Shown: in pieces, positions 20,534 to 43,135 of the stretch
How the letters are laid out: every line of letters starts with the position of its first letter
Numbering within the stretch: position 1 is the first letter of the stretch
From: Stenotrophomonas maltophilia
GTDB taxonomy: Bacteria > Pseudomonadota > Gammaproteobacteria > Xanthomonadales > Xanthomonadaceae
Length of the DNA: 64,000 nt
Assembly: GCF_900186865.1 (NCBI RefSeq)
Contig: NZ_LT906480.1
Span: forward strand, 1,506,001-1,570,000
Reading direction: 5' to 3'
The notes under the pieces: model-generated
Seen by the model: only the letters and a program-made list of their open reading frames with translations
Database searches by the model: none
What the model was told of the DNA's origin: nothing
Made by a program: the position numbers and the translations under genes

Positions 20534-20551
20534 GAGTGGGGCGACCTACTC
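20534..20551. promoter_or_regulatory. 18-bp operator, copy upstream of 20589
   Basis: GAGTGGGGCGACCTACTC; the right half and spacer match the type operator at 33146. It lies 37 bases before the ATG at 20589 and probably overlaps its promoter. Confidence 0.65.
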
Positions 20552-20588
20552 ACGAAATCCGCTTTAAATAACCCAAGAGACCGCCGCC

Positions 20589-20762
20589 ATGATTGAAAGC
20601 CCCACCCGCTCGGCCCGCCCCATTGCTGGCCTTCCCTTCGCGCACATCCCACCCACGGCTCCCGCGTTCCTGCCCGAAGGCAAGCTTCGCCGGCAAGCCC
20701 GGCTGGCGCGCCAGCAACGCCACTTCGAGCGCCAACTGCGCAAGGAGCTGAAATGGAAATGA
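20589..20762 (+). CDS. Small basic proline-rich protein of unknown function
   Basis: 57 residues. The N-terminal half is proline-rich (MIESPTRSARPIAGLPFAHI, then PPTAPAFLPEGK), the C-terminal half a basic helix (LRRQARLARQQRHFERQLRKELKWK). The ATG overlaps nothing upstream and follows the operator at 20534. Its stop overlaps the ATG at 20759 (ATGA), which fixes both frames. The basic helix may contact nucleic acid or a phosphorylated partner. Unknown family. Confidence 0.6.
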   Translation: MIESPTRSARPIAGLPFAHIPPTAPAFLPEGKLRRQARLARQQRHFERQLRKELKWK

Positions 20763-21217
20763 CCACCGATCGGCGCGCTCAACGGCTTCTGGAGGCCATC
20801 GAACACCGCAACCCACAGGCTTTGAAAAGAACCATTGCGGCCATCCACGAGGCACGTCTGAAGGCTTGGAGGGGCCTGACGGCTTTCCCGTCCTTGGACC
20901 ACCCGGTGGGGCCCAACGGAATAACCGCTTTCCACGTCGCTTGCATGGCGTGGCACGTAAACCAGGATGACCTGCACGAACGGCAGTGCTACGACAAGAT
21001 GGCCGGAATGCTGGCCGAAGCCGGGGCGGACGTGTTTGCGGAGTTCGGCCCGGCAAAGCAACGCTGGACGATCATTGAAGCGCTGCATGGGGCTGCGCCG
21101 CCGTCTGTCAAAGCATGGATGGCCTCTCAACCGTTCGATCTGCATTGCTCTGCGTCAAACACCGCCCACACGATTCGGTGGGACGGCCGTCGTCCAGTCG
21201 CCTCGCTGGAAGAATAG
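20759..21217 (+). CDS. Ankyrin-like protein of unknown function
   Basis: 152 residues starting at the ATG that overlaps the upstream stop; an in-frame ATG at 20753 is possible. Ankyrin-like helices include RLLEAIEHRNPQALKRTIAAI and GPNGITAFHVACMAWHVNQDD followed by KMAGMLAEAGADVFAEFG. No catalytic motif. It is the second gene of the two-gene operon controlled from 20534. Confidence 0.55.
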   Translation: MTTDRRAQRLLEAIEHRNPQALKRTIAAIHEARLKAWRGLTAFPSLDHPVGPNGITAFHVACMAWHVNQDDLHERQCYDKMAGMLAEAGADVFAEFGPAKQRWTIIEALHGAAPPSVKAWMASQPFDLHCSASNTAHTIRWDGRRPVASLEE

Positions 21218-21331
21218 AAAAGAATCCAAGGGCTGAACGGCCCGAAAGGGTTGCAAAAACATGCACTTGCGCAATGGCGGCGTCGGGGTAGATTCGGAGG
21301 GAACCCCTATCTACTCACGAAAGGATGCCCT

Positions 21332-21928
21332 ATGCGACTGTGCAACTTCTCACTCAAGGGTGGCGTCGGCCGCACGACGCTGGCCCTGAATCTTGCCGGG
21401 TGCTATGCCCGTGACCCCAGCCTGCGTGTGTTGGTCAACGACCGGGACCCCCAAGGCGGAGCCTGTGCGTTTGCCTCACTGTCGGACGAAACACCGTTCA
21501 GTGTCGGGCGCTCGCGCTCCCCTGGCTTCGACGTGGAGATCACCGACACTCCACCACGCCTGCCGGACAACGAAGTGATCCCCGAGGCTGATCTCTACCT
21601 GGTGCCCACGTTGCTCGATGGGGCCAGCTTTCTCATCTTTCTGCGAACCGTGGATGTTCTTGAAAAGAAGGGAAAGCGTTACCTGCCCATCGCCAACCGG
21701 GCCAACGAGAAGCGGGCAGCCCATCGCCGCCGCCTGGAGCACCCCAAGATGTCGGGCGCCGTCCTGGTGCGGGACCGAGCGTTGTTTGCGGACTGCTACG
21801 AGGAGGGAAAGACCGTGTTCGACGCCAACGGCCGCTGGGCCCGGGTGGCCCAGGAGGAGATTCACGCCCTGGCTGTCCGGGTGCGCGATACCTTGGCCGC
21901 TGGTGCAGGCCGGAGGGCTGCGGCATGA
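21332..21928 (+). CDS. parA: ParA-like ATPase with a KGGVGRTT P-loop
   Basis: 198 residues. The N-terminus MRLCNFSLKGGVGRTTLALNLAGC is a deviant Walker A of the ParA/MinD family, but the usual GKT lysine is arginine (GRT), while the signature lysine (K9) is kept. Walker A' (EITDTPPRLPDN) and a short C-terminal half follow. The length is that of small plasmid ParA proteins without an N-terminal DNA-binding domain. ParA drives segregation with a partner and a centromere site. The ATG lies 15 bases after the TACTCACGAAA half-operator (21311). It overlaps the next gene, so the partner is probably downstream. Confidence 0.8.
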   Translation: MRLCNFSLKGGVGRTTLALNLAGCYARDPSLRVLVNDRDPQGGACAFASLSDETPFSVGRSRSPGFDVEITDTPPRLPDNEVIPEADLYLVPTLLDGASFLIFLRTVDVLEKKGKRYLPIANRANEKRAAHRRRLEHPKMSGAVLVRDRALFADCYEEGKTVFDANGRWARVAQEEIHALAVRVRDTLAAGAGRRAAA

Positions 21929-22533: not shown

Positions 22534-22535
22534 GC

Positions 22536-23642: not shown

Positions 23643-23682
23643 TGAAGCGGCTCCCCTCACTTCGAGGTAAAGCCGCCATAGC

Positions 23683-23829
23683 TCACTTGCCGTTCCGCTT
23701 CGCAACAACTGAGGCTGCTTTGGCCTTGAACGCACGTTGTTGAGGAGAGGGGTTGGGTTGGCGATCCACCGCGCTTTGGATGCGTCGCTGGGCGGCCTGT
23801 GTCATTGGGGTCTTCTTGCTGTTGCTCAT
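23683..23829 (-). CDS. Small basic protein found on plasmids
   Basis: 48 residues: MSNSKKTPMTQAAQRRIQSA, then VDRQPNPSPQQRAFKAKAASVVAKRNGK. The start is supported by AAGGAGAACACA upstream on the minus strand. The pattern KTPMTxxAxxRIQSA is shared by a group of small proteins common on plasmids and islands (recalled); their role is unknown. It is oppositely oriented to the parA operon and follows the HNH genes on its own strand. Confidence 0.65.
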   Translation of the reverse strand: MSNSKKTPMTQAAQRRIQSAVDRQPNPSPQQRAFKAKAASVVAKRNGK

Positions 23830-23947
23830 TGTGTTCTCCTTCCAGGAGGCTGGGTGAGCGGTCAGCCTAGAAGGGAGAGCCAGGACAGTTGGTTAGAAAT
23901 CTTGGGAGTTTGATCAGCTCCTGAGACATCAGGGCCAAGACAGGGTT

Positions 23948-25941: not shown

Positions 25942-26707
25942 GGGAGCGCTCCTGAAACGAAAGCAGGTGGATCATTGATGGGCCAATGGCGGTGAATGAC
26001 GGCCATGGCGCGCACCCTTGTTTGACTAAAACGAAATGGGGCGAGGGCTCCGCGCTTTCCTTCCAAGGGTTCTTTGGCTACCCACTTGCGATTCGGAAAA
26101 CACGGTGTCGGTGTATCCAAGGGCATTGCACACGTTTGACTAAAACCAACGTGGCTTGGGTGTCGTGGGGTGGTGCGGCGGGTGGGCGAGGGCAACCTGT
26201 CCTGGGGATCCGGGGCAATGCGAAAGGGTGGGCTGAGAAACTTTGCACGGATTCCCGGGGTGGGGCATCGGTGGGCGTGAGGGGGGGAAGAGCGGGAGCG
26301 TAGCGTGAGCATGGCGTGGGCGGCGGTCCTGTGGGGCGAGGGGGCGTAGACCACCAATAGCGCAGCTGGGGCAACACGCAAGGGGCCGCCGAAAAGCAAC
26401 TGCAAGAGCCCAACGTGGGTAGAAGCATTGTCGGCAGTGGCAGAGAAGCAGGAGCCCGGACGGTTCCCCAGAGTCGTCATACACATGACGCACTGAAGTG
26501 GGAGTGCGTTTTTCGCCCAAGAATCGCTGTAACGCCAGCCGAAACCTCAATGCAATCAAGGCCTGACCATGTCACCACCGAATGGAGACAGTGTCAGTGC
26601 TTGTTAGCTCGTTTGGCCCATGTTTTTCAGGCTCCTGACGTGGGGCCTTGCCAACTCCGAGATTCGCGGTATCGGTGGAGTAATCCCGAAACGGAGTTAC
26701 TCGACCG
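25942..26707. other. Long non-coding region with short repeats
   Basis: 766 bases between divergent genes, without a coding frame I would accept. It has two copies of TTTGACTAAAAC (26021-26032 and 26135-26146), the complement of the TTTTAGTCAAA motif found at 5486, 12467, 13178 and 20465. It also has TGTCGGTGTATCCAA (26106-26120), matching TGTCGGTGTATCCCAA at 5519. The right end carries the promoter region of the 26708 gene. Such a repeat-bearing gap is a fair candidate for an origin or centromere, but I see no clear iteron array. Confidence 0.5.
26678..26702. promoter_or_regulatory. Inverted repeat at the head of the conjugation-like operon
   Basis: GAGTAA...TTACTC arms 6 bp long, separated by 13 bases, ending 5 bases before the ATG at 26708. 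The half-site TACTC is that of the element-wide operator, but the spacing is longer (25 instead of 18). The adjacent gene encodes a ribbon-helix-helix protein, so autoregulation is likely. Confidence 0.6.
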
Positions 26708-27109
26708 ATGGCGTTCGTTCGTCAAAACGTAAACCTCGACCCTCGGCAACTGAAACTTGCTCAGCGGCTTGCCCGTGAATCGGGCAGTGGGTTCAGCGCT
26801 TACATGCGAGAGGCGCTGGAGCGACACAACACCGCCACGTCAGTGGTGAGCGTGTTGGAGAACGCCAACGCTCAGCTGGAGCGCCTCATCGACGATCTGC
26901 GGGAAGAGAACGCGCTGTTTCGCAGTGCGCTCCAGGAAGACCTGCGGCGGCTGCGAGACGAAACGAAGGCGGATCAGGACAGCGCCATTCAGCGCTACGA
27001 AGAAGCGCTTCGCAAGGTCGTGACGGCGGCCCTCTCGCAACCCTCTCCCAAAGGCTCTGGTGCGGCCAAGGTGCCCGCAACCGGACCCATGACTGCTCCA
27101 CGCACCTAA
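26708..27109 (+). CDS. Ribbon-helix-helix protein with coiled-coil extension
   Basis: 133 residues. NVNLDPRQLKLAQRLARESGSGFSAYMREALERHN is a ribbon-helix-helix fold. About 50 residues of heptad-patterned coiled coil follow (VVSVLENANAQLERLIDDLREENALFRSALQEDLRRLRDETKADQ). This design resembles small relaxosome accessory proteins or operon repressors of conjugative plasmids. It is the first gene of the 26708-33049 operon and lies directly behind an inverted repeat built from the element's operator half-site. I consider it the best candidate for the operator-binding master regulator. Confidence 0.7.
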   Translation: MAFVRQNVNLDPRQLKLAQRLARESGSGFSAYMREALERHNTATSVVSVLENANAQLERLIDDLREENALFRSALQEDLRRLRDETKADQDSAIQRYEEALRKVVTAALSQPSPKGSGAAKVPATGPMTAPRT

Positions 27110-29087: not shown

Positions 29088-29420
29088 ATGTTCAAGTGGC
29101 TGTTCACGCAATACCGGGAACCCGGAAAACTTCACTTCGGATCAAAGTGGCTGAACCTGCACGGGCGCTTGTTCCTCGGCAGCCCTGAATCGTTTGGCAT
29201 GGGCCACCTGAGCGAAGGCGTCCGCCGCACTTTCTACTACCTACGCGCCGATCGCAGACCGCCGGTCAGAGACGACGCCGCGTATGACGCATGGACCAAG
29301 GATCGGCTCTACGCGAGCAAGGTTGAGCAGGTCGCAGAGCGCTGGGTGGCCAAAGCGGGCTTTCTGGCGTGCGCGCCGCTTTGCTTGGTGCTTGCCGTCT
29401 TGGCGCATTGGCTTCGTTGA
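29088..29420 (+). CDS. Small membrane protein preceding the large ATPase
   Basis: 110 residues, with a hydrophobic C-terminus (AGFLACAPLCLVLAVLAHWLR) that would anchor it with the N-terminal 85 residues in the cytoplasm. The ATG at 29088 follows AAGGGGGAAGC. It directly precedes the large ATPase gene by 23 bases, so it may be its small partner. No family recognised. Confidence 0.6.
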   Translation: MFKWLFTQYREPGKLHFGSKWLNLHGRLFLGSPESFGMGHLSEGVRRTFYYLRADRRPPVRDDAAYDAWTKDRLYASKVEQVAERWVAKAGFLACAPLCLVLAVLAHWLR

Positions 29421-29443
29421 TTTGACAGAGGAGGGAGACAGAG

Positions 29444-32437
29444 ATGGCAGCAATCAGTTTGTTCAACGTGCTTGACTGGACGAGCGGCCTGGGGCGCAAG
29501 TTCCGCCGGAAGAGCGGCGAGCCTTCGAGCGTGAAGGAAGAAATCATCGTCAAATCCCACGAGGAGTATGAAAACCTCGTGGGGCGCTTTGACGTGACCG
29601 ATCGCGTTCGCAGTCGAGAGCTCGATGTGCCAGAGGCTGACCGGGATTTCGCGCTGGAGTGCGGCGCGGTCTGGGACGAGAACGCCCAGGTGTTCAAGGT
29701 GCCCGACGGACGCAACGAGGACGAATTCCAGGAGTGGTGGCCGAAGGTTCCGGAAGATTTGCGGGACACCCAATCGCGGATCATCACGACGAAGCTTGGA
29801 CGGCGTGCCGAGGGCTTCCTGCAGGGCAACGACATGGGGCAGGGCGGCGACAGCCTGGCCACTCCCTTGATGTATCTTGCCTTCCCCGTGATCGGCGTTC
29901 TGGCGACCTTCCTAGTGAGCCTCATCGGCTGGGCAGGCTGGGCAGCTCTGTTGCTGACCATTCCTTACTTCATTGCCCTCAAGCAAGGCGAGGGCATGAA
30001 GGAGGCACTGAAGGCCCTGGTGCTTTTGCAGTGGGTTCCAATGGCGCTTCAGTTCATAGTTGGAGACAGCAAGGGCGGCACCGAGGTGGCAATGCAAGCC
30101 GGCGGCATGGCTGTGTATGCCCAGATGGCCAAGACCTATCTTTGGTGGGCCCTTGGCTTGGCCTTTGGCTTTGTGGGCATCCTGTTTGTGGTTTGCTTTG
30201 TGTCCGCGGCCTCGCACCCCCACCGGGGCGTCATCGGCGGGACGGCCGCGCGCTTCATTCAAGCGATGAAGTGGGTGGGGCTCATCTTTGCCACCTTGGT
30301 TGTCGCCAAGGTCCTGCCGTTTGGCTTGGGCGAGGCGGCACCTTACGTGCTGGCGTGCATGTATGCGATGCAATACGCCGAAGGCAACTTTGTCCAGAAC
30401 GCCGCCCGGCTCTACCTGCAGAACAACGACAACAACCTGGCCACCCAGGGGGCGTTGATCAACTCACACGTCAAGGCCCGTGAACAGCAAGCCGAGGCGG
30501 CCCTGCGGGACAAGACCCCGCTGATCACCATTGGGCGCGCCACGGGACACCTTTCCGACAAGGGCTATGGCTACTCGCCCGACCTGGGCACCGTGATGAT
30601 GTTCTCGTGGAGGGATTGTCAGCAGGGCCTGCTGGTATTCGGAGCCATCGGATCTGGCAAATCCTTCGCCGCGCTGAGACCCATCGCTCGTCGGTTCCGT
30701 AGAGCCGCGTTGGCGATGGCATGTGTGGCGCCAGGCCACGCAGATGCAAGGGAGCGCTTGAAGCAGCAGAAGCTTGCCGGCGGTGGCGCGCTCATCGCCG
30801 ACGGCAAAGACGGGGCGATCATCTCGGACTTGGAGGGATTGTTCGATATCGTCGTCAAACCCGGGATGCGGGTGGCGCCATACGAAGGGTTGGCGCCAGA
30901 TCAAATCGTCCGGGCATTGCGCGGCGCATCGGGTGGGCGCGTGGACGAGAAATCCAAGCTTTGGACGGATGGTGGCGATGCGTTCCTTTACCACACCGGC
31001 ATCATTCTTCGTGCGCTAGTGGATCACGAGATGGCTTACAGGTCTTGGTGTTCGGCCAAGCTGGAAGGGCTGGAGCGTGCACAGTTGGATGCGGAGCTTG
31101 AGCTGGTCAAACAGCGCAAGCTGGACGAGGACGTGGCCGAGACTGAGGCATTGCTCGAGCGGATCGCCGAACAGATCGCCATCCATCGAATCCCTGTGAG
31201 CGACGACAGGCAATGGCAATACACGCCATTCCACCACGCCAAGTTGTTGTCCATTGTGGAACGCGTGATTCCCGCCAGCCCCGCGCCTCGTGCCAATGCA
31301 AAGCTGATGGAGGTGGTGAAATACTTGGGCCTGGAAGAGGCGGACACGAGCCATGACGAAGAAGGGCGCCTGGCCTACGCGGCCTACCTGCAACAGCACC
31401 GCCTTCGTCAAGAGAGCGCTCCGCAGACCATCCACCCGGATCTCTTCCGTCCCATGTCTCAGCTGCAGAGCTCGCTGGAATGGGCGTTCCTGGAGATTCC
31501 CGCGATGCATCCGGAACAGAGGCAATCGTTCACGCTCAACTCACGAGGGCTGCTGGAGAAGCTCTTGCGAGGCGAAAAGCTGCGTGACAGCAAGACGGAC
31601 ATGCCTTGGCATTCGATTGAGACGGGCGAGGTGGATGTGTCCGACGCGCTCTATGGAGCCATGGTAGGCCTCTTCTTGCCCCCGACCCAATTCGGTGAAG
31701 CGGGTGAAATGATGATGCGCCTGCTCAAACAGCGGGTCATGAACGGAATCAAGGCGCGTGGTGCATTCGGCGAAAAGTGGCGCGAAGCGTTGCCTGGGCA
31801 AACCGAGGTGATGTTGATGATGGACGAGGCCCACCTGTTGTTGACGGCCGATGACATCAACCTGTTCTCCGTTTCGCGCTCGCTGGGGTTGATGCCCGTG
31901 CTTGCAACGCAAGGGTTTGAAAGCTTGGTCAACGCCTTTGGGTCAGTCAACGAGGCGGAGCTGATGGCCAACACGATGCAATCGGTGATCGCGCTGAAGT
32001 GCTCGCACAACACCCACGAATACCTGGAAAAGCGGTTCGGACAGGCAACGTTGACCACGTTCAAACAGCGCACCCGGGGCATCGACTACCAAGGCGGCAT
32101 GAACAATTGGCGCCACTCCGTGCTCAACGACCCGGATCATGCCTACGCGTCCGCCTACGACAAGATGCGAATGGAAGGGGCCGGGCGGTTGACGGCCTCG
32201 CGCATCGACGCCGTGACGGGGCGCCGCTGGCGGATTGGGTCGGAGGACACGCTGGGCCAAGACGAGATCGCGCGCGACATTGACATGCCCACCGGGGGCA
32301 AGCGCGAGGTGCAGCCGCTCTTCCTGCAGGAAGAATACTCCGCCCTTCTTGAGCCCCGTGGTCACGCCATCGTGGCGCTGAACCGTGCCGGCATCAAGCG
32401 AATCGACTTGGCGGAGCTGCTGCCCGATGCGGATTGA
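29444..32437 (+). CDS. Large TraG/VirD4-superfamily membrane ATPase
   Basis: 997 residues. Four or more hydrophobic segments lie between residues 140 and 310. The P-loop is GAIGSGKS (400-407), Walker B VMLMMDEA (789-796), followed by LFSVSRSLGLMPVLATQGFESLVNAFGSVNEAELMANTMQSVIAL, the arginine/glutamine-rich C-terminal motif of TraD/TraG/VirD4 coupling proteins. About 380 residues between the two motifs is long and probably contains an all-alpha domain. It differs from the conventional coupling protein at 34478. It could pump a substrate through an unusual channel or act like DotL/IcmO. ATPase identity is firm; the coupling role is inferred. Confidence 0.75.
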   Translation: MAAISLFNVLDWTSGLGRKFRRKSGEPSSVKEEIIVKSHEEYENLVGRFDVTDRVRSRELDVPEADRDFALECGAVWDENAQVFKVPDGRNEDEFQEWWPKVPEDLRDTQSRIITTKLGRRAEGFLQGNDMGQGGDSLATPLMYLAFPVIGVLATFLVSLIGWAGWAALLLTIPYFIALKQGEGMKEALKALVLLQWVPMALQFIVGDSKGGTEVAMQAGGMAVYAQMAKTYLWWALGLAFGFVGILFVVCFVSAASHPHRGVIGGTAARFIQAMKWVGLIFATLVVAKVLPFGLGEAAPYVLACMYAMQYAEGNFVQNAARLYLQNNDNNLATQGALINSHVKAREQQAEAALRDKTPLITIGRATGHLSDKGYGYSPDLGTVMMFSWRDCQQGLLVFGAIGSGKSFAALRPIARRFRRAALAMACVAPGHADARERLKQQKLAGGGALIADGKDGAIISDLEGLFDIVVKPGMRVAPYEGLAPDQIVRALRGASGGRVDEKSKLWTDGGDAFLYHTGIILRALVDHEMAYRSWCSAKLEGLERAQLDAELELVKQRKLDEDVAETEALLERIAEQIAIHRIPVSDDRQWQYTPFHHAKLLSIVERVIPASPAPRANAKLMEVVKYLGLEEADTSHDEEGRLAYAAYLQQHRLRQESAPQTIHPDLFRPMSQLQSSLEWAFLEIPAMHPEQRQSFTLNSRGLLEKLLRGEKLRDSKTDMPWHSIETGEVDVSDALYGAMVGLFLPPTQFGEAGEMMMRLLKQRVMNGIKARGAFGEKWREALPGQTEVMLMMDEAHLLLTADDINLFSVSRSLGLMPVLATQGFESLVNAFGSVNEAELMANTMQSVIALKCSHNTHEYLEKRFGQATLTTFKQRTRGIDYQGGMNNWRHSVLNDPDHAYASAYDKMRMEGAGRLTASRIDAVTGRRWRIGSEDTLGQDEIARDIDMPTGGKREVQPLFLQEEYSALLEPRGHAIVALNRAGIKRIDLAELLPDAD

Positions 32438-33145: not shown

Positions 33146-33163
33146 GAGTAGGTAGACCTACTC
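33146..33163. promoter_or_regulatory. 18-bp operator, perfect type copy
   Basis: GAGTAGGTAGACCTACTC: 7-bp arms (GAGTAGG / CCTACTC) with a TAGA spacer, perfectly symmetric. It lies 24 bases before the ATG at 33187. This is the best copy of the operator seen also at 20534, 39706, 42907 and 43118. Confidence 0.8.
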
Positions 33164-33186: not shown

Positions 33187-33390
33187 ATGTCCACGTTGTT
33201 CAATGCCCTCAAAGACTTCGCTTTCGAAAACGCGGTTCCACTGCTGACCGGCTTGTTCCTGCTGACCGCGGCCTTCGCAGCGGCTGTTCTCGTCTACCCC
33301 CCGGCCATTCCGGTTCTGCTCAAAGTGGTGGCCATGGCGGTGGCGGGCTTTGTGACCATCGGGGTGGTGGTCCAGAGTTCCTTCCGGTGA
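33187..33390 (+). CDS. Small two-helix membrane protein
   Basis: 67 residues with two hydrophobic segments (VPLLTGLFLLTAAFAAAVLVYPPAIPV and LLKVVAMAVAGFVTIGVVVQSS). The ATG follows AAAAGGAGAGCCGCC. It is the first gene behind the perfect operator at 33146 and its stop overlaps the GTG of the next gene. The size and hydrophobicity resemble VirB2-like pilins, but the signal peptide and cyclisation marks are absent, so I leave it unnamed. Confidence 0.6.
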   Translation: MSTLFNALKDFAFENAVPLLTGLFLLTAAFAAAVLVYPPAIPVLLKVVAMAVAGFVTIGVVVQSSFR

Positions 33391-33536
33391 GCAGCCGGCG
33401 CTGGCTCAAGCTGCGTGCAAGGTGCAGGAAGCGTTGGCGCCGGTTTGACTGGGATGGGTTTGATTTCTGGTTCTACCCCGCGCTGATTTTCTACATGTTG
33501 GGCTGGATCGTCTTTGGCCCACCCGACAGCGTTTAG
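33387..33536 (+). CDS. Very small membrane protein
   Basis: 49 residues from a GTG overlapping the previous stop. A basic N-terminus (MSSRRWLKLRARCRKRWRRF) precedes a membrane segment (FWFYPALIFYMLGWIVFG). It ends 5 bases before the tRNA gene. Function unknown; coupling to the preceding gene supports it being real. Confidence 0.5.
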   Translation: MSSRRWLKLRARCRKRWRRFDWDGFDFWFYPALIFYMLGWIVFGPPDSV

Positions 33537-33541
33537 CGTTC

Positions 33542-33628
33542 GGGTCAGTAGTCCGGTAACGAAGCCGGGGCAGTCTGTAAAACTGCTGGTTCACTCCCCT
33601 GCAGGTTCAAGTCCTGCCTGACCCACCA
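33542..33628 (+). tRNA. tRNA-Tyr (anticodon GTA), encoded in the mobile element
   Basis: The acceptor stem GGGTCAG pairs perfectly with CTGACCC, followed by A and a genomic CCA. The anticodon arm is GCAGT-CTGTAAA-ACTGC, reading GUA (tyrosine). The T arm GCAGG-TTCAAGT-CCTGC is intact, and a variable arm (TGGTTCACTCC) of class II type is present. The D arm is weaker (GTCC/GGGC with a G-U pair). Sequence outside the stems differs from typical host tRNA-Tyr. It lies between small membrane-protein genes and an ankyrin gene, inside the element rather than at its edge. Confidence 0.85.
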
Positions 33629-33672
33629 TTTCTGCGTGTTGGCTTGACGGCCAGCGATTCAACGCTACAACC

Positions 33673-34500
33673 ATGGGGATGGACACTCAAGAATCCCTGT
33701 TGCGCCTTTTGCGTCCCCTGGACCTCCAACGAGCGGAGGCCTTGGCGGCCGCGCTCGCTCGCGAACCCGGCGCATCCAAAGGCCTTCACGATTCGCAAGT
33801 GTTGGCGCGCGCCCACGCACTGAGCGTTGCCCCTGTTGAGGGTCGGTTGGGCGATCTGGTTTGGCAGGTGCGCCAGCGGGAGCACGATGATGCACCCCAA
33901 GTGGACCTGCGCTGGGGCTTGTATCGCCTGGGGTTCGACGCGCCCACGCGGGCCTCCACCCGGGACCTGGTGCGTGCTTACGGGAGGCGCTTGGCAGACC
34001 GTGACGAGCCGATGGTTTACAGCACCTTGGCAGAGAGGGTGGCTGGGTTGTCCATGGCAGAGCACGCCTCGCTCTTCCAAGGCATGGCGATGGCGGTGGA
34101 GGAAGCGCGGGCACGGAAGTCCGATGCAAACCGGTTGCGGGAGAACGCACCGTGGCAGGGCTGGCTCGTGGGGGCGTCCCGGGCGGGCCACGAAGCAGCA
34201 CTGCTGGCCTGCATCGGCATGGGAGCGGACGCCCGGCTGCCCGATGCCAGCGGCAACACGCCCCTGCACCACGCGGCCCGGTTTGGTCACGCCTCGCTGG
34301 TCACGCCTCTGGTTGAAGCGGGCTCCGACGTGGCGGCCCTCAACGCCCACGGGTGGGCACCGCTCCACCTTGCCGCCCTTCACAAGCACGCCCGGGCCTG
34401 CCTCCACCTGATGGCCCACGGCGCCAATCCAGAGCAGCCAGGGTGGCGAGGGCGGCCCCCGACGCGCATGCACCGACATGAGCAAACCCAAGCCCTTTGA
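33673..34500 (+). CDS. Ankyrin-repeat protein
   Basis: 275 residues (ATG at 33673; an alternative ATG at 33679 is in frame). The C-terminal third has two clear ankyrin repeats: SGNTPLHHAARFGHASLVTPLVEAGSDVAALNAHGWAPLHLAALHKHARACLHLMAHGANPEQPG. The N-terminal two thirds are helical and unrecognised. It overlaps the coupling-ATPase gene by 23 bases, so it heads that operon. Ankyrins bind proteins; it may regulate or dock with the coupling ATPase. Confidence 0.65.
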   Translation: MGMDTQESLLRLLRPLDLQRAEALAAALAREPGASKGLHDSQVLARAHALSVAPVEGRLGDLVWQVRQREHDDAPQVDLRWGLYRLGFDAPTRASTRDLVRAYGRRLADRDEPMVYSTLAERVAGLSMAEHASLFQGMAMAVEEARARKSDANRLRENAPWQGWLVGASRAGHEAALLACIGMGADARLPDASGNTPLHHAARFGHASLVTPLVEAGSDVAALNAHGWAPLHLAALHKHARACLHLMAHGANPEQPGWRGRPPTRMHRHEQTQAL

Positions 34501-36349
34501 TGCCCTGGGCGACGTGCCCGGCAGCGTTGCGCCTTCCCAGCCGGTCCGATACTGGCACCGCGCCGTTCTTGCCGGTGCATTCGTTTTTGGCTTGGCCTAC
34601 GTGGGGAGCATGGGCGTTGCCTGGCTCTTGCCGAATCCCGATGGCTCGCTCATCCGTTTTGCCGATGCCTTAAAAGGCGGACTGGTGACCGCCTACCACT
34701 TCCTGACCGTCGGCATCTCGGCTCGGGCTCCGGCACGGGAGTTCATCGAACTGGTGTCCTACCACCACCCAGTGGCGACGTGGTCCCGGATCGGGGTGTC
34801 GCTTCTGCTGGCGGTGGGCCTTGGCCTTCGCATGTTCCTCAAGGCAGCTGAGCCGGTGAGCAACACTTGGCACCTGTCCGGACCGCGGCTATTGGAAGGA
34901 AAGGAGGCCGTGGACGAAGCCCGGCACCGCTCGATAGCCCCTAAAGACGCCGAGGCGGATCCCTTCGCCCTGTCCCTCCACCCCGATCTGTTGCTGTCAA
35001 AAAAGCACTGGGCGCGCCACGTCTTGATCACCGGTTCGGTGGGGTCGGGCAAGAGTGTCATCCTCAAGCACATCCTGGAACAGCTAACGCGACTGAAGAG
35101 CGCAAAGTTGTTCCTTTACGACATCAAAGGCGACTTCACGTCGATCTTTAAAAGGCCCATCATCGTGTCGCCCTTCGATGCGCGCTCCCACGTGTGGGAC
35201 GTCGCCGCCGACGTGCGGACCCCGACCCAGGCGGCGGCGTTTGCTGCCTCGATCATCCCGGAGGGCGACGGGAACGCCAAGTTCTGGACGATGGCCGCGC
35301 AAGACCTGTTGATCGGGTGCGTGCGCGAACTCCAGAACACCCGGCCTGGCCAGTGGGGGTGGCCCGATCTGGCGGCCTTGGTGCGCCGCCCGGCTGCAGA
35401 GATGGCCGCAGGCATGCGCCCGCATTACCCCCGCGGCGCCGCACTGGTGCGTGATCCGGAGAGCCAAACCACGTCCAGCGTGCTGTCTTCCCTCGGGGGC
35501 TTCACCCGCCTCATCGACGACCTGGCCACCGCATGGCCCAAGGTTGGCAAGCGCCGTTTCTCGATGACCGAGTGGATACGGGACGACTACACCGGGCGCA
35601 AGCAGGTCATCGTTCAATCCGGACCCGACCCAACCCTGACGAAGGCCTACATCGCCGCCATGATCAACGTGGCCGTGCCAGATCTCATTGGGCCAGGTTT
35701 GCCGGACAACGAGGGCGGGCGTGGGCTCTACTTCGTGTTCGACGAGCTGACCAGCGCCGGGCGCTTGAACATCGATCCCTTGTTGGCGTTGGGACGCAGC
35801 AAAGGCGTGGTGGCCATCATGGCGGTCCAGGATCACTCCCAGATTGAGTTGGTTTATGGGGACAAGACCGCCCAGGCCTTCTCATCGCTGGTGGGCACCC
35901 ACGTGGTGTGCCAAGTGCAGATGGGGGCGACCCGGGACAAGCTGGCCAGCCAGCTCGGCAAGCGGAGAATCGCCTGGCGTGGGCACGAAGACAAGGCCCA
36001 GATTCACGAAGAGAGCCGCGCGTTGGTTTCCAGCGGTGAGCTCACCGACCGGTTGGGTTTCCGCAAAGGCAATCGCTACGGTTCCGAGAAGTGGGGCATC
36101 GAGGCGATCGTCCAAATGGGCGGGGACGTGCTGTTGCTGACGTGGCCCGGCAGGAGCCATCCAACGGTTCGCGAAGGGCAGGTGGCCGCCGCGTGGACCA
36201 CCAAGCCGGCCGGTGTGGTGGGAGAAGCTGAATTGCCCCCTTTGACCGGTGACGCGTTGGCCTTCCCAACCACCGCAGAAGGCATCGACACGGTCCAGCG
36301 GGTGCTGACCATGACACCCGAGGAAATCGACGCGCTTTTCAAGCGGTGA
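34478..36349 (+). CDS. Type IV coupling protein, VirD4/TrwB-like
   Basis: 623 residues. Two membrane helices near the N-terminus (HRAVLAGAFVFGLAYVGSMGVAWLL, about 27-51, and WSRIGVSLLLAVGLGLRMFL, about 102-121) anchor the protein. The P-loop is GSVGSGKS (186-193) and Walker B is LYFVFDEL (417-424), with the RecA-like and helical domains between them. The glutamine-rich motif VAIMAVQDHSQIELVYG follows. This is the standard architecture of TrwB/TraD hexameric coupling ATPases that bring the relaxosome to the secretion channel. It lies directly upstream of the relaxase gene. Confidence 0.88.
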   Translation: MSKPKPFDALGDVPGSVAPSQPVRYWHRAVLAGAFVFGLAYVGSMGVAWLLPNPDGSLIRFADALKGGLVTAYHFLTVGISARAPAREFIELVSYHHPVATWSRIGVSLLLAVGLGLRMFLKAAEPVSNTWHLSGPRLLEGKEAVDEARHRSIAPKDAEADPFALSLHPDLLLSKKHWARHVLITGSVGSGKSVILKHILEQLTRLKSAKLFLYDIKGDFTSIFKRPIIVSPFDARSHVWDVAADVRTPTQAAAFAASIIPEGDGNAKFWTMAAQDLLIGCVRELQNTRPGQWGWPDLAALVRRPAAEMAAGMRPHYPRGAALVRDPESQTTSSVLSSLGGFTRLIDDLATAWPKVGKRRFSMTEWIRDDYTGRKQVIVQSGPDPTLTKAYIAAMINVAVPDLIGPGLPDNEGGRGLYFVFDELTSAGRLNIDPLLALGRSKGVVAIMAVQDHSQIELVYGDKTAQAFSSLVGTHVVCQVQMGATRDKLASQLGKRRIAWRGHEDKAQIHEESRALVSSGELTDRLGFRKGNRYGSEKWGIEAIVQMGGDVLLLTWPGRSHPTVREGQVAAAWTTKPAGVVGEAELPPLTGDALAFPTTAEGIDTVQRVLTMTPEEIDALFKR

Positions 36350-36413
36350 TCGGCCTTGCCAACTCTCCGTTTTCTGGGACCTTGGAACAGTCAACGTTCT
36401 TTAAGGGAGCCCC

Positions 36414-39248
36414 ATGATCAATTGCACCCGCATCGATGCCCGCGGCCACAACAAGAACAACGGAAACATGTTCGACTACATGCTGGCCACCGAGCGCCTG
36501 GCCATCGACAGCGCCGTGGCCTATTACGCCGGCAGCGGTCCCGATCCGCGGCAGACGCTCAATTGGGGCGGCAAGCTCGCCGCCGAACTCGACCTGGAAG
36601 ATCAACCGGTCACCCGAAGGGTGATGGAGTTGCTGGGCAAGGGCTTTTCACCCACCGGAAGGCCGTTGTGCAAAAACGCGGGAGAGGAGCCCCAATTGGT
36701 CATCAAGACGGATCGCATGGGCAACGTGCGACTGGACGACGATGGCAAGCCAATGGAGAAGTGGGAGGGCGGCCATCGGGTCGGGTTTGATCTGACCATC
36801 TCCGCCCCGGGGGACGTGAGCGTGGCGTTTGCGCTGGCGGATGATCGCGAGAAGCTGGCCATCCTGGAGGCCCACCGCCAGGCCTGCGCCGTGGCCATGC
36901 GCTACATCGAAAGCAAAGTGGAGACCCGGCGCGGACAAGGAGGCGTAGACGTTATAGGCACGGCGGGATTGGTATGGACAGCCGCCGATCATGTCAGCAA
37001 CCGGAACGTGGAACCCGACCTGCACACCCATCACCTGGTCTACGGGATCTCGATGGGCGAGGACGGTCAGTGGGGCACCTTCGACGCCATCGAAATCTAC
37101 CGTCACCGGCACGCCGCGGATCACCTTTACAAAGTCGAGCTCTACGCCGCGATGAAAGCGCTGGGCTATGGGATTCAGCGGGAACGCGAGGTGGACGTGA
37201 TGGGGCACGAAACGGGCCAGACTCTCACCACGATTGCCGGCATCGACCGGGAGCTGGTGCTTCAGACGAAGACCCGCCGCCAAGAAATCCTGGACTACGT
37301 CAAGGAACACCCCAACGCCAGCCACGACGAGGCCTGCAAGGCCACCCGCAAAAAAAAGGAAGAACCGCCCTTCGAGCAGGTCGTCAAGGACTGGCAGCAA
37401 ACCTTCGCCAACATCGCTAAAGAGCACCCGGAGCTGGTTCCCACCACCCAGTCGCTCAAGCAGACGAAAGGCCAACACCTGGACCCGCATACGTTTGACG
37501 AGGTTTTGCAGCGCATGCACGAAAACGAGGCGATGTTCTGCGAGCATGACCTGGTCCGGGAGTTGGGGATGGAGTTCGCAGGACAAAAAAATTCAGAAGA
37601 AATCCTCAGGATGGTGAATGAGTTCACCGAGCAGGACGATCTGGTGCGCGTGAAAGCCGAATACCTCCACGAAGACGACCGGGGCGTTCGGTTGGCGCGC
37701 AAGCACCGGGAGGATCGCTTCTGCGCCACCTGGATGGTCGAATGGGAGGCCGAGATCATCCGCCGCTCGAAAGAGCGGGAGAACGAGACGGACCTCAAGC
37801 TGTTCCGCTCCACCGTGGATCGGGAGATCGCCGCTTACGAGAAGCGCAAGGGCTTTACCCTCACAGAGGAGCAGAAAGCCGCCATCGGTCACCTCACCTA
37901 CGGCACGGCCGGTGTGGGGGTCATGTCGGGGTTGGCCGGCACCGGCAAGACCACCGTGGCCGAGGTCTACAAACAGTGCTTCGAAGCCGAAGGAAAGCAG
38001 TTGATGGGCTTGGCCGTGTCGGGTAAAGCCGCGGCCAAGCTAGAAGAAGAGTCCGGAATGCCCTGCATGTCGGTTGCAAAGTTCTTTTCCCAGCTCCGGC
38101 AGGGCAAGGTTGCTCTGACGAAGAACGTTGTGGTGGTGCTCGATGAAGCCGGCATGGTGGCCACCGATGACACCTTGAAGCTCATGACCTACTGCCAGGG
38201 GGTGGGCGCCAAGCTTGTCATGCAGGGAGACAGTGACCAGCTTCAGCCCATCGCTGCGGGCAACGGCTTTGAGCTGGCGAAGATGGCCTTGGGGGACAAG
38301 AAACTGACCGAAATCCGCCGGCAGAGGAACGCTGATGACCTGGTCACCGCCAACAGCTTCTACGAGCGGGATGACGAGGGAGAGGTCAAGGACATGCGCC
38401 GCGGACACCGCAGCCGCAAAGGCACATTCGATATGGGCGAAGATATCCTGAACAACCTCAAGCAACGCAACTGCATCGACGACTTTGGCACGGAAAGCCA
38501 GGCCATCAAAGCGTTGGTGGAGGATTACTTGAAAGACAGGACGCCCATGGACGAGAAGCTGGTCTTGGCCCACACGCGCTCTGAAGTCAAAGCGCTTACC
38601 ACGGGCATCCGAACGGGGCTCCAGGAGCAAGGCGTGCTGGACAAAGAGGAGTTCACCTTCCGATCGATCGTGAAAGGCCAATGGGAAGACCTGACGCTCT
38701 CCCGCCGCGACCGTGTGATGTTCACGGCGACCAACAACGACTTGGGTGTCATCAACGGCACCGAGGGCACGGTGGAGAGTATTCGGAAGGACAAATCCGG
38801 TGGCTACGACCTGGTGGTGCGCATCGACTCTTCGAACCCGAATGAAGAAGGACGCATCCTGGAGTTCAACACCAGCGAGCACAACGCCTTGGCCCACCGG
38901 TATGCCATGACCGTTCACAAGGCGCAGGGGCAGGGGAAATCCGAGGTTTACCACTTGGCCACGAACATGGGAATGCTCGACCAGCAGTCGGCGTTGGTGG
39001 CGTTCACTCGCCTCACCAAAGGCAGCTACCGCATGTTTACGACCGACGAGATGATGGATCGCATGGCCGAGCGGCTGGGCACCGAACGGCACAAGGAAAT
39101 GGCGCTGAGCGTGGGACTGTCCAGCAAGCAGGCGGACCCGGTGCGCAACCTGGTCCAAGAAGTGGAAGCGCTGCTGGCCGGGTTGAAATCCGAAACCGAG
39201 GTGCCAATCTCGAACGCGGAACGGCGCGAGATGAGGCTTACCCGGTGA
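36414..39248 (+). CDS. traI: MobF-family relaxase-helicase (TrwC/TraI-like)
   Basis: 944 residues. The N-terminal relaxase has candidate catalytic tyrosines Tyr22, Tyr37 and Tyr38 (MFDYMLATER, AVAYYAGSG), a WGG motif, and the metal-binding histidines H193 plus H204/H206/H207 in PDLHTHHLVYG, where classical MobF has HTH followed by N. The C-terminal helicase has P-loop GLAGTGKT (506-513) and Walker B VVVVLDEA (572-579), then a RecD-like domain with VHKAQGQGKSEVYH. It nicks oriT, stays attached to the 5' end and unwinds the strand. The ATG at 36414 follows AAGGGAGCCCC. It is part of the coupling-protein operon. Confidence 0.92.
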   Translation: MINCTRIDARGHNKNNGNMFDYMLATERLAIDSAVAYYAGSGPDPRQTLNWGGKLAAELDLEDQPVTRRVMELLGKGFSPTGRPLCKNAGEEPQLVIKTDRMGNVRLDDDGKPMEKWEGGHRVGFDLTISAPGDVSVAFALADDREKLAILEAHRQACAVAMRYIESKVETRRGQGGVDVIGTAGLVWTAADHVSNRNVEPDLHTHHLVYGISMGEDGQWGTFDAIEIYRHRHAADHLYKVELYAAMKALGYGIQREREVDVMGHETGQTLTTIAGIDRELVLQTKTRRQEILDYVKEHPNASHDEACKATRKKKEEPPFEQVVKDWQQTFANIAKEHPELVPTTQSLKQTKGQHLDPHTFDEVLQRMHENEAMFCEHDLVRELGMEFAGQKNSEEILRMVNEFTEQDDLVRVKAEYLHEDDRGVRLARKHREDRFCATWMVEWEAEIIRRSKERENETDLKLFRSTVDREIAAYEKRKGFTLTEEQKAAIGHLTYGTAGVGVMSGLAGTGKTTVAEVYKQCFEAEGKQLMGLAVSGKAAAKLEEESGMPCMSVAKFFSQLRQGKVALTKNVVVVLDEAGMVATDDTLKLMTYCQGVGAKLVMQGDSDQLQPIAAGNGFELAKMALGDKKLTEIRRQRNADDLVTANSFYERDDEGEVKDMRRGHRSRKGTFDMGEDILNNLKQRNCIDDFGTESQAIKALVEDYLKDRTPMDEKLVLAHTRSEVKALTTGIRTGLQEQGVLDKEEFTFRSIVKGQWEDLTLSRRDRVMFTATNNDLGVINGTEGTVESIRKDKSGGYDLVVRIDSSNPNEEGRILEFNTSEHNALAHRYAMTVHKAQGQGKSEVYHLATNMGMLDQQSALVAFTRLTKGSYRMFTTDEMMDRMAERLGTERHKEMALSVGLSSKQADPVRNLVQEVEALLAGLKSETEVPISNAERREMRLTR

Positions 39249-39694
39249 CGCATCGGGCCAGCGCCAACACGCTGATCACCACCACTACCCATGGCCACCA
39301 CCCCACGCGTTCGGAGGGGGCTTTCACCGGTGTTCCCAGCTGCCACCGCCGTTGGTGGGCCAACCCGCGCACGTGGGCCGTGGCCCGCCGGTGCGGGTTG
39401 GCCCACCAACGGCGGTGGCTTGGCGTAGATGCGCCATCCCTCCCGGGAGGCCTTCACCCGCCACGCCTGCTCATACGCCTCGGTTTCCGCCCGGGTGGCT
39501 GTCACCACCTCCAGCGCATGGAACCGGAAGGGACGGTGCCAGCCGCCTTTGGGGGAGCGGTGCTGCTTCTCCCGCTGCTGCGGGTTCGAGCTTTGGCCGA
39601 TGTAACAGCCCCCGTCGTCGAACAGCAGGGCGTAAAGGGTGCGGGGCAGGGCGTGATACTTCTCGCTGCGTCCCAGGTTGTGGCGATGGGTCAT
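39026..39694 (-). CDS. GIY-YIG nuclease, 3' part antisense to the relaxase gene
   Basis: 222 residues from the ATG at 39694. The nuclease domain occupies about residues 10-90: TLYALLFDDGGCYIGQSSNPQQREKQHRSPKGGWHRPFRFHALEVVTATRAETEAYEQAWRV, with GIY-YIG represented by LYALL...CYIGQSS, an Arg, and a Glu. The C-terminal 120 residues lie over the 26-bp inverted repeat and 223 bases of the relaxase gene in antisense; they look low-complexity and may not be a fold. The upstream start region contains the operator at 39706. Mobile-element GIY-YIG enzymes cut DNA for homing or restriction. Confidence 0.7.
   Translation of the reverse strand: MTHRHNLGRSEKYHALPRTLYALLFDDGGCYIGQSSNPQQREKQHRSPKGGWHRPFRFHALEVVTATRAETEAYEQAWRVKASREGWRIYAKPPPLVGQPAPAGHGPRARVGPPTAVAAGNTGESPLRTRGVVAMGSGGDQRVGAGPMRHRVSLISRRSAFEIGTSVSDFNPASSASTSWTRLRTGSACLLDSPTLSAISLCRSVPSRSAMRSIISSVVNMR
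39343..39418. repeat. Perfect 26-bp inverted repeat with 24-base loop
   Basis: Left arm 39343-39368 and right arm 39393-39418 are exact reverse complements over 26 bases (starting CCACCGCCGTTGGTGGGCC...). It lies 95 bases after the relaxase stop, inside the low-complexity middle of the antisense GIY-YIG gene. A perfect GC-rich stem this long suggests a functional structure or recent duplication. It could be a terminator for the relaxase transcript (no T tract follows), or an oriT-like or single-strand origin hairpin; both are inferred from location. Confidence 0.85.
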
Positions 39695-39705
39695 GGTCTC
39701 TCCGT

Positions 39706-39723
39706 GAGTAAAACGACCCACTC
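39706..39723. promoter_or_regulatory. 18-bp operator, copy upstream of the GIY-YIG gene
   Basis: GAGTAAAACGACCCACTC, followed by ACGAATAGATCAGA. It lies just upstream of the minus-strand ATG at 39694. The downstream flank ACTCACGAATAGATCAGA is repeated exactly at the operator of the YadA gene (42921), suggesting shared -10 elements. Confidence 0.65.
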
Positions 39724-41208: not shown

Positions 41209-42882
41209 TTACCAACCGATGGCCCAGGCTGCGCCCACGGCCGTGTCCTGTCCGCTGCGGGAAACCCCGATCGAGAAAGCCGATGGGGATCCGCGTGGGG
41301 TGGTCACGTCGCGGGTGTAGCCGATGGAAATGGCGGCTTGGCCGCTGCAGCCACCGACGCCCACGGCCAGGCGGTTGCGGTTCTCCCCATGGATGGCCGA
41401 CGTTGAGGTGGCCATCTGGGCGTTGGCTTGGGCCATGGCGCAGACACCGCTCACCCGCTTGTCGAGCTGGCGGAAACGGCGGTCCGTCAGGTTCCAGCGG
41501 TCGTCTTGCTGCCGCTGGTAGTCCCACAATTGGCCACCGTTGATCGCGTCCGTGGACCCAGGAGCGATCGCCCCTGCAGCCACCCCAGTTACCCGCTGGT
41601 TGCCGGCGTTGATCCCGGATCGGGTGACCGATGGGCCGCCTTGGACAGTGAAGCCGTCGCTGTTGTGGATGGCCTTGGCCACTTGGACCGAGCCCTGCTC
41701 GGAAAGCTCAATGGTGTCTTTCAAGGCAACGGTTTGGGTGCCGTCCCCGTTGTCCGTGACCTCGATGTTGGCCCCGGCCACCGCAGAGCTGCCACCGCCA
41801 TCCTTGCCGTCCTCTCCATCTTGTCCAGCCGGACCTTGGGGGCCTGCTGGCCCTGGTGTTCCGCTTTGTCCGTCCGATCCTGCCGGGCCTGGCTCGCCTT
41901 TATCTCCCTTCAGCGACGCCAACCATTCGCGCTCATTGCCCTGGTAGCCATTGTTCACGGCCACTTGGTAGGCACTGGCACCATCGGAGCCTGCTGGACC
42001 TTGGCCGCCGCCGGGGTTGTTCTCAATGGTGTGAAGTCGTCCGTCGATGTCGTAGAGCGCGTCAGCAACCGTGTGGTAAGTGTTGCCGCTCTGCATAACA
42101 TACGTCGGAGCGATGAATTGTCCATTGACGTAACGTGCACCGGCCCCCAGTGCACCAGCAATAGGATTTAATTGCCCGACTGTCGCAGCGTCTGTGTCGT
42201 AGAGGCCGTCGGCCACGTTGGACACACGGCGCTTAAGCGTAGCGTTACCCACGGAGACGGTGTTGGCTTCGCGGCCGCAGTCGCTGGTAGCGCCGAGGGC
42301 TACGCAGCCATCAGCGTCGGCGTTGGTGAAGGCTCCCAGCGCGGTTGTCGCGGCCTTGGCCCCCAAATGATTGGAATTGAGAGCTCGGCCGCCATCGCCC
42401 ACTACCACAGTGCCTGCGCCAGTAGCTCGAATGTTCTTGCCTACGCCAACCCCTCCTTCATTGCTATTGGAGGGGTTGCCGTTGACTTGGCTGTTGCTGC
42501 CAATGATGGTTGCGTTGTCTCCGTTGCTGTTGTGGCCAACGACGACCGTGCCGCTCACCGCGCCAGCAGGCGCGAACGCGTCGTTTCCAATAACAATGAC
42601 GCCGCCGGCGAGGGCTCGAACCCGAGTTCCGAAGCCAATCGAACCAGTTCCAACGACACTGTCCGCTCCCACTGCGATGCAGTCGCCGAATGCTGCATTG
42701 GGACTTCCAGCGAGGGAGCCCTTTCCCACTGCGACGCAATTGTTGTAGGCGGTCGAGTCGTCACCGGCGGAGGTGCCTTCAGAGTCTGTGGCAGTGGCGT
42801 TGTTGCCAACTTGGGTTTGAGCATTTGCTAAACCCGCTACAAGGACTGCCAACCAAGCGCAGTGGATGAGGGAGCGTTTCAT
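41209..42882 (-). CDS. YadA-type trimeric autotransporter adhesin with collagen-like stalk
   Basis: 557 residues. Signal peptide MKRSLIHCAWLAVLVAGLANAQ, a head of YadA left-handed repeats (repeated VAVG, GSNSQVNG, VVVG, GKNIRATG motifs), a neck-like VSNVADGLYDTDAATVGQLN, then a collagen-like Gly-X-Y region (GDKGEPGPAGSDGQSGTPGP and following), stalk, and a C-terminal YadA anchor (about 70 residues ending AISIGYTRDVTTPRG...VGAAWAIGW). It would display a trimer on the surface. Finding a trimeric adhesin on a transferable element suggests a role in cell contact or biofilm. The operator at 42907 lies immediately upstream. Confidence 0.9.
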   Translation of the reverse strand: MKRSLIHCAWLAVLVAGLANAQTQVGNNATATDSEGTSAGDDSTAYNNCVAVGKGSLAGSPNAAFGDCIAVGADSVVGTGSIGFGTRVRALAGGVIVIGNDAFAPAGAVSGTVVVGHNSNGDNATIIGSNSQVNGNPSNSNEGGVGVGKNIRATGAGTVVVGDGGRALNSNHLGAKAATTALGAFTNADADGCVALGATSDCGREANTVSVGNATLKRRVSNVADGLYDTDAATVGQLNPIAGALGAGARYVNGQFIAPTYVMQSGNTYHTVADALYDIDGRLHTIENNPGGGQGPAGSDGASAYQVAVNNGYQGNEREWLASLKGDKGEPGPAGSDGQSGTPGPAGPQGPAGQDGEDGKDGGGSSAVAGANIEVTDNGDGTQTVALKDTIELSEQGSVQVAKAIHNSDGFTVQGGPSVTRSGINAGNQRVTGVAAGAIAPGSTDAINGGQLWDYQRQQDDRWNLTDRRFRQLDKRVSGVCAMAQANAQMATSTSAIHGENRNRLAVGVGGCSGQAAISIGYTRDVTTPRGSPSAFSIGVSRSGQDTAVGAAWAIGW

Positions 42883-42906
42883 AGGGTGGCCTCCTGGCTC
42901 TGAATT

Positions 42907-42924
42907 GAGTGAGTGTGTGCACTC
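42907..42924. promoter_or_regulatory. 18-bp operator, copy upstream of the adhesin gene
   Basis: GAGTGAGTGTGTGCACTC, followed by ACGAATAGATCAGA. It lies 25 bases upstream of the minus-strand ATG at 42882. The GTGAGT/ACTCAC arms pair. Confidence 0.65.
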
Positions 42925-43117
42925 ACGAATAGATCAGATCCTGGAATGCGCAAGCCCCCCCAACGAAACTTCCCGGCGCAACGGCAGGAGGACCGTTGAG
43001 CCGGGAAGCGGTGGGGCCGACTTTTCCCCACCCCTGTTCTTCTACGTCAGGGAAAAGATTCCGCAAGCCCCCTTGCGCGTTTTCGATTCTCCGCTTGCAT
43101 GGATGTATCGCTCATGT

Positions 43118-43135
43118 GAGTAAGGAGGCCTACTC
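43118..43135. promoter_or_regulatory. 18-bp operator overlapping the ribosome site of the M15 peptidase gene
   Basis: GAGTAAGGAGGCCTACTC directly abuts the ATG at 43136, and the AAGGAGG ribosome site lies between the two arms. A bound dimer would block both transcription and ribosome access, and the arms could also pair in RNA to hide the ribosome site. Confidence 0.75.

Follow-up and report, generated by a model that had tools for sequence, protein, structure and literature searches.

Recurrent 18-bp palindromic sites, candidate repressor operators, precede gene units of an integrative element of Stenotrophomonas maltophilia

In pSM19035, the sites of the omega protein overlap the promoters of a parA-like gene and of other genes, and the resulting repression leads to incompatibility (outlined in PMC4498918). 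KorB/IncC of RK2 provides one partition-linked protein with many operators, which represses transfer and other genes (outlined in PMC11790492), and MobC of RA3 is presented as a ribbon-helix-helix (RHH) relaxosome auxiliary and autorepressor whose own promoter carries an imperfect palindrome (outlined in PMC4175270). The transfer competence of ICEclc is placed under element-encoded control (outlined in PMC7423338). Here we analysed an integrative element at about 10-44 kb of a 64,000-nucleotide stretch of the S. maltophilia chromosome (the window; bases 1506001-1570000 of 5,004,261). The element encodes a ParA, an RHH protein, a TraG-D_C ATPase, a TraD/TrwB-type coupling protein and a TrwC/MOBF relaxase, and seven 18-bp sites precede its gene units. 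We regard this operator family as almost certainly real, and its members are probably promoter-overlapping repressor sites, with p21925, the product of the gene adjoining parA, as a candidate reader.

We claim membership in none of the pSM19035 omega, KorB and MobC systems. As in pSM19035, a small ParA gene adjoins a partner gene. Palindromes precede parA and other genes in every lineage, and the partner is their predicted reader. The omega sites, however, are 7-10 contiguous heptads, whereas those described here are single 18-bp palindromes; p21925 matches no RHH family, the ParA reads KGGVGR, and the element is integrated. KorB differs in being a CTP-dependent ParB clamp with 16-bp OB sites that are partly distal, while p21925 has no ParB-type Pfam match. 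The likeness to MobC belongs to another protein of the element, the RHH protein encoded at 26708 (RHH26708), which shares the RHH fold and an inverted repeat at its own start. Unlike MobC, which is described as controlling its own operon, RHH26708 is only weakly NikA-like. The ICEclc regulator is reportedly BisDC, and no FlhDC-like family was found among the window proteins scanned with Pfam; to our knowledge, the ICEclc sites are unrelated to the 18-bp operators. Neither a description of this operator nor a regulator of such elements was found in searches of an open-access library, mostly at the level of abstract openings.

A sequence-only reading had described the site at 33146 as a perfect palindrome whose arms recur with equal total length at four other places. 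Its 8-bp arms are perfect, but the 2-bp centre is non-symmetric, leaving 2 mismatches against the other strand; the recurrence was borne out, with GAGT-N10-ACTC, 18 bp each, at 20534, 33146, 39706, 42907 and 43118 (P1 and P4-P7, Table 1). The pattern GAGTR-N8-YACTC has 6 occurrences genome-wide (5,004,261 bases), and 22.6 kb of the window element contain 5 of these. The same pattern read backwards served as the control and occurs at 10 genome places, a density against which 5 sites in 22.6 kb have a P of about 1.5e-9. A palindrome count against the reversed sequence was an uninformative control, because reversal keeps palindromes. A mismatch scan with the 33146 18-mer, allowing up to 3 mismatches, recovered only 20534 and 43118 in the window and missed 39706 and 42907, which share the outer arms with 33146 but differ in the centre. 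The ACGAATA common to these two sites is a -10-like TATTCGT in gene sense, upstream of the operator.

We also scored the sequence with a matrix built from 9 distinct 18-mers of three relatives; 3 of the 9 are identical to window sites, so that the matrix is no independent test for those. Sites 33146, 20534, 43118, 39706, 29053 and 42907 scored 17.6 to 25.1, and the top score among 40 dinucleotide shuffles was 17.8. Enrichment over shuffles thus applied to most of the sites, 29053 (18.9) barely, but not to 42907, nor to 21299, whose score of 12.4 is not significant alone and which is kept before parA in relatives. A further match, at 50303 (15.1), falls inside a large open reading frame (ORF). 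The half-sites that had been proposed fared unevenly: 21299-21316 (originally placed at 21311) and 29053-29070 each have one good, gene-proximal half and recur before the same genes in relatives, whereas 26678 belongs to a 39-bp inverted repeat (26671-26709) and to no 18-mer. For genes on both strands, the distance from site to start codon is 0-37 bp at all seven window sites, with start codons as chosen in this analysis.

Relatives of the element were sought with two of its proteins. The 997-aa TraG-D_C ATPase matched 11 of 198 family genomes, its own included, and gave 8 named loci, and p21925 matched 9 of 395 family genomes, again including its own. Among 397 order-level genomes there was one further p21925 match, a weak one in G644 (E 5.7e-4, one internal stop). 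Against plasmids, p21925 had no match and the 997-aa protein had 11 distant partial matches; viral contigs gave no match. Sites were found in 12 element copies, namely the window, L045, L046, L050, G266/L048, G160/L051, ICE-A, G071 (L047, L070), G115/L049, G189/L052, G152 and G125. Eleven of these come from Stenotrophomonas, Lysobacter, Luteimonas or the same family, and L046 comes from a Proteobacteria metagenome-assembled genome. ICE-A is a second, diverged copy of the gene set on the same chromosome (1393.9-1426 kb, about 90 kb away), whose 997-aa protein is 63% identical to that of the window element.

Within the stretches compared, the sites of these relatives precede matching genes: the unit before parA, parA itself, the small ORF before the ATPase, the unit of the 67-aa protein, and the GIY-YIG, YadA-stalk and peptidase genes. 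P1 recurs before the unit upstream of parA in L046, L050, G266, G160, ICE-A and G071. The parA-preceding site is full in G115, G152 and G125 and has one good half in L046, L050, G266, G160, ICE-A and G071. The P3 18-mer is identical before the same gene in L045, L046 and G266; P4 recurs in L045, L046, L050, G266, G160, ICE-A and G071, and P7 in G160 and G266. The P1 operator region is present twice in L070 (G071:C46), at 7779-7796 and 16407-16424, 8.6 kb apart. Stretches of 13-20 kb each from G010, G100 and G167 had no match to either matrix, and G141 had one match (14.4) in 20 kb.

Spelling varied with the element. The GAGTA/TACTC type was found in the window, L045, L046, L050, G266 and G160, and the GGGTA/TACCC type in ICE-A (for example GGGTAAACCGACCTACCC), G071, G115 and G189; G152 has GGGTAT/ATACCC. 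In G125 the sites are 20 bp long, GGGTAGG-N6-CCTACCC-like at three places, with GGATAGGT/ACCTATCC before parA. Sites for the pairing and promoter counts were hand-picked from matrix matches, and weaker or unassigned matches were dropped (among others ICE-A 25179, 26335, 31687 and 41774; L070 140, 6111 and 7252; L047 9871; G266 18408 and 42425; G160 61219 and 69684; L050 18105; G125 18319, 22727 and 34228; G141 8721; G152 31439; G338 40099 and 49066; left-arm set 52022; window 47439 and 50303). The pairing counts used 51 sites (32 distinct), without G125, G189 and any second record of an element; one G125 site was added for the promoter-score set of 52. Arm pair 2 reads A/T in 11 of the 32 distinct 18-mers, G/C in 13, A/C or G/T in 5 and otherwise in 3, an association (Fisher P 7e-4 on 29 18-mers) that goes back to only a few evolutionary changes. 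Because the two co-resident elements differ in spelling, the site reader should be element-encoded; a host regulator is unlikely on the same ground and because the rest of the genome has one such place. The sites are element-confined, pre-genic, recurrent and spelled differently per element, which supports the earlier proposal of one element-encoded regulator for many units.

The operator precedes parA-p21925 in all five lineages covering that stretch, and the two genes overlap by 4 bp. Identity of p21925 is 83-97% within the GAGTA type and 39-46% between that type and the others. Residues 115, 117, 119 and 121 read H-R-M-T in 5/5 GAGTA-type elements read, and also in the relic G338; they read T-R-M-T in ICE-A, G115 and G125, V-R-M-T in G071, and A-R-V-T in G152, the element with GGGTAT sites. 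The V at position 115 in G071 narrows the residue rule to H versus not-H. The segment 115-166 may be RHH-like, and p21925 is the best candidate for the reader and repressor of the 18-bp sites, a role for which we see an even chance. A bolder reading, which we hold only tentatively, would make p21925 the founder of a new DNA-binding family that combines the roles of ParA partner and global repressor in integrative elements and whose site recognition follows a readable code. Within that reading, residue 115 (H versus T/V/A) would set A or G at arm position 2, and residue 119 (M versus V) would set G or T at arm position 6. In G010, a different ParA (KGGVGK) and a different partner go with a different repeat family, TGMTAGCA-N2-TGCTAKCA plus GCTAGC units phased at 10 bp, in front of the parA unit and at other places; searching with the G010 partner returned only 2 near-copies. 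Arrays of GCTAGC/GATAGC half-sites in 10-bp steps lie in G010 (L041) at 5243-5290, 6630-6670, 8145-8415 and 16006.

In the mechanism that we propose, the 18-bp sites would be operators of an element-encoded repressor, a dimer of which would bind both halves of GRGTAGGT-N2-ACCTACYC. With the operator on or just after the -10/start region, RNA polymerase would be kept off (promoter occlusion, as with omega or KorB). In the integrated state this would jointly silence the units of the ATPase, the coupling protein and relaxase, ParA, the GIY-YIG protein, the peptidase and the YadA-stalk protein. The repressor would most likely be p21925, with feedback on parA-p21925, and p21925 may double as a ParB-like partner of ParA, with the scattered operators as centromere. 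With its own spelling in each lineage, such a system would make the two elements of this chromosome separately controllable. Binding, repression, the partition role and the identity of the regulator are all inferred from sequence. For the promoter evidence, a loose promoter score was taken over the 60 bp before each site plus the first 16 bp of the site. The best score around the 52 chosen sites averaged 9.6, compared with 7.9 (sd 1.0) at 2000 random places, and as the random places are mostly coding, part of this difference may be composition. Frequent near the operators are TTGCGC or TTGCCA, 16 bp, and then TATTCG, TAGAAA or TAGATT.

The possible share of composition in the promoter scores counts against this mechanism, and several further observations weigh on the same side. 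A strict sigma-70 scan of 20001-40000 found 0 promoters, compared with 2.4 in shuffles, and the best -10-like element starts at positions between 36 bp upstream and 7 bp downstream of the operator's first base. The weak sites that we accepted (21299, and a left-arm site scoring 13.7-14.2) score no higher than stray matches. Left-right pairing over all eight arm pairs did not clearly exceed that in shuffles of the right halves, with 163 pairs against 155.3 (sd 5.7) and 203 of 2000 shuffles as high. As for p21925, the non-GAGTA proteins are only 41-48% identical mutually, no closer than to the GAGTA type; few lineages underlie the residue-site correlation; and the relic G338 carries p21925, yet has only weak matches (14.6, 15.7). 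The protein has no Pfam, NCBIfam, PHROG, PDB or Foldseek match, and hhalign of p21925 against RHH sets gave 0.2-1.2% probability, so that its RHH nature rests on pattern reading. ParB-type Pfam families had no match among 26 p21925 relatives up to E 1, though the protein may still have a fold of that kind.

The regulators that had first been put forward were the RHH proteins at 26708, 14058 and 6322; all three are RHH proteins, but none is well supported in this role. That RHH26708 serves as repressor for the whole element, with the 18-mers and its own promoter as targets, is unlikely in our view. In its favour, it has an RHH-like fold by comparison, it is found in 11/11 operator-bearing sequence sets reaching its place (L070 and the left-arm set do not show it), and, as a further point against p21925, it also splits by operator type, being 65-78% identical among the window, G266 and G160 and 21-35% from these to others. 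GAGTA stands before its start in 6/6 GAGTA-type elements, with TACTC 25 bp on in 3/6, and some 600 bp upstream of its gene the matrix has a weaker match (14.2) in ICE-A, and likewise in G071. The inverted repeat at its start, however, which was detected in 4/6 stretches (window, L049, L036 and L027, not L048 or L050), does not correspond to the 18-mer. Its arms differ in each of the four lineages, and outside the window element they bear no relation to the 18-mers found locally: GGTGTAG/CTACACC in G115, TCTCCGTTATCTC/GAGATAACCGGGA in G152 and AATCCAT/ATGGATT in ICE-A. The predicted strand of the protein differs among ICE-A, G115 and G125 despite their common GGGTA arms, and weak relatives occur in G010 and G141 (E 4e-5, 0.0065), which have no site (G010) or one stray match (G141). 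RHH26708 is thus probably not the operator reader. Its weak NikA matches (E 0.0032, 0.038; under the cut-off) suggest a relaxosome protein, and the repeat at 26671-26709 may serve autoregulation, form a hairpin that blocks translation or belong to an origin of transfer (oriT). It is quite unlikely that the sites are bound by the helix-turn-helix (HTH_3) protein at 9998, the tandem RHH protein at 14058, the RHH protein at 6322 or an unrecognised element protein. The three named proteins belong to DNA-binding families and have relatives in some elements, but the HTH_3 and 14058 proteins do not follow operator type. G160 has GAGTA-type sites, yet its HTH protein is 62% identical to that of ICE-A and 41% to that of the window; the 14058 protein shows 32-36% identity between the window and G266/G160, though their operators are equal; and for the 6322 protein, relatives turned up in G266, G160 and the relic G338 alone, with none in the stretches of ICE-A, G115, G152, L047 and L070 (those of L045, L046 and L050 end short of its place).

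Two further explanations give the sites another role. One, very unlikely in our judgement, takes the sites mainly as a centromere (parS) for the ParA-like protein with little effect on transcription. They precede parA and are dispersed, and the parS sites of pSM19035 overlap promoters repressed by the small ParB-like omega (outlined in PMC4498918). The short distances of all seven window sites to start codons are nevertheless more than a pure centromere needs. In addition, the Walker A motif of the ParA is KGG[VCS]GRTT in 10/10 operator-bearing elements compared and KGGVGKT in G010. The usual ParA Walker A is KGGxGK, and with KGGxGR in its place the ATPase role of this protein is uncertain. 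The other explanation, that the sites work in the RNA leader as a 5' hairpin, is barely credible. The sites do fall in the predicted leader, and several pair by eye as 7-bp hairpins; but in gene sense the 32 distinct sites have 27 G-T and 37 A-C mismatches, so that G-U pairs are not in excess and nothing indicates that an RNA hairpin has been selected for. In two window sites only one half is good, and Rfam at the gathering score had no match in the window. Repression from promoter-overlapping operators is our preferred reading of the sites.

If this reading is correct, a family of mobile elements of Stenotrophomonas, Lysobacter and Luteimonas would have a single master switch for which the DNA site is defined and a candidate protein can be named. 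The different spellings of the two elements in one chromosome suggest a separate switch in each element. Co-resident elements with different operators would form a natural test of regulator-site co-change, and the same pair would also test how related elements avoid silencing each other. If the p21925 code is true, the elements would form separate regulatory groups, like phage immunity groups, and such grouping would let two relatives share one chromosome.

Table 1. Sites and genes of the window element (window positions)
Feature	Position	Strand	Remark
Operator P1 GAGTGGGGCGACCTACTC	20534..20551	+	37 bp before 57-aa ORF 20589 (then 20753)
Operator P2	21299..21316	+	only gene-proximal half good; 15 bp before parA
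Small ParA-like ATPase, 198 aa	21332..21928	+	PF13614, PF01656; 61.4 bits against NF041546, below its cut-off of 180; Walker A variant KGGVGRTT
p21925, 202 aa	21925..22533	+	candidate repressor; strand-helix-helix pattern by eye at about 115-166, possibly RHH-like
39-bp inverted repeat over RHH gene start	26671..26709	.	not an 18-mer operator
RHH26708, 133 aa	26708..27109	+	long coiled coil; likely relaxosome accessory protein or autorepressor
Operator P3	29053..29070	+	gene-proximal half good; 17 bp before ORF 29088
110-aa ORF 29088 and 997-aa ATPase 29444	29088..32437	+	no family for ORF 29088; TraG-D_C domain in ATPase
Terminator-like hairpin	33071-33096		upstream of P4
Operator P4 GAGTAGGTAGACCTACTC	33146..33163	+	23 bp before ORF 33187
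Genes after P4	33187..39248	+	putative single transcription unit
Hydrophobic 67-aa protein (ORF 33187), ankyrin protein	within 33187..39248	+	
TraD-type coupling protein 34478; TrwC/MOBF relaxase 36414	within 33187..39248	+	
tRNA-Tyr	33542-33628		between 67-aa protein gene and coupling-protein genes
GIY-YIG domain protein	39026..39694	-	start taken as ATG 39694, longest ORF would begin at GTG 39721; domain scan without first residue
Operator P5, gene sense GAGTGGGTCGTTTTACTC	39706..39723	-	11 bp before ATG 39694
YadA-stalk protein	41209..42882	-	
Operator P6, gene sense GAGTGCACACACTCACTC	42907..42924	-	24 bp before YadA-stalk gene
Operator P7 GAGTAAGGAGGCCTACTC	43118..43135	+	adjoins ATG of M15-type peptidase gene
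M15/VanY-type peptidase	43136..43918	+	
HTH_3 regulator	9998..10486	-	rejected as operator-binding protein

Of the parts expected of an integrative conjugative element, a relaxase (TrwC/MobF) and a coupling protein (TrwB/TraD-type) are present. An own type IV secretion ATPase (VirB4/TraC) was found in neither element with Pfam PF03135, PF19044 and PF11130; the first two of these families have a single matching ORF in the genome, at 3119-3121 kb, and the third has none. The movement of both elements may therefore depend on another element or on an unknown channel. The 997-aa ATPase is conserved among elements. ICE-A ends in a tyrosine integrase (about 1424814-1426070), and another integrase lies at 1471811-1473547 beside a gene read as mutS. 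The region of this second integrase may be the left arm of the window element; an insertion carrying insertion-sequence genes and a gene for AcrB-type efflux would then separate it from the core. The weak left-arm site (genome 1482498-1482515) precedes a glycine-zipper protein gene, and 1487-1511 kb holds one matrix match only (10.7). Among the other element stretches compared, the left-arm genes have no relatives except ArdC.

In ICE-A (L027), a long non-coding stretch before the RHH gene (C1:1407300-1408300) holds several TTGACTAAAAC copies, which are a candidate oriT or iteron. The protein at 14058-14417 has 119 aa and two RHH-like units by eye, the first with Pfam RHH_1, and diverged relatives of it occur in G266, G160, G125 and G115. 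A tRNA-Tyr lies at the place matching that of the window in L046, L048/G266 (L068), L050 and L051/G160 (L030), and not in L045, L027 (ICE-A), L047, L049, L052 and L036. A 4097-aa ORF (46746-59039) adjoins a ShlB/FhaC-type gene (45516), and an 87%-identical fragment lies downstream (genome 1569128-1570942), an arrangement like that of contact-dependent inhibition loci.

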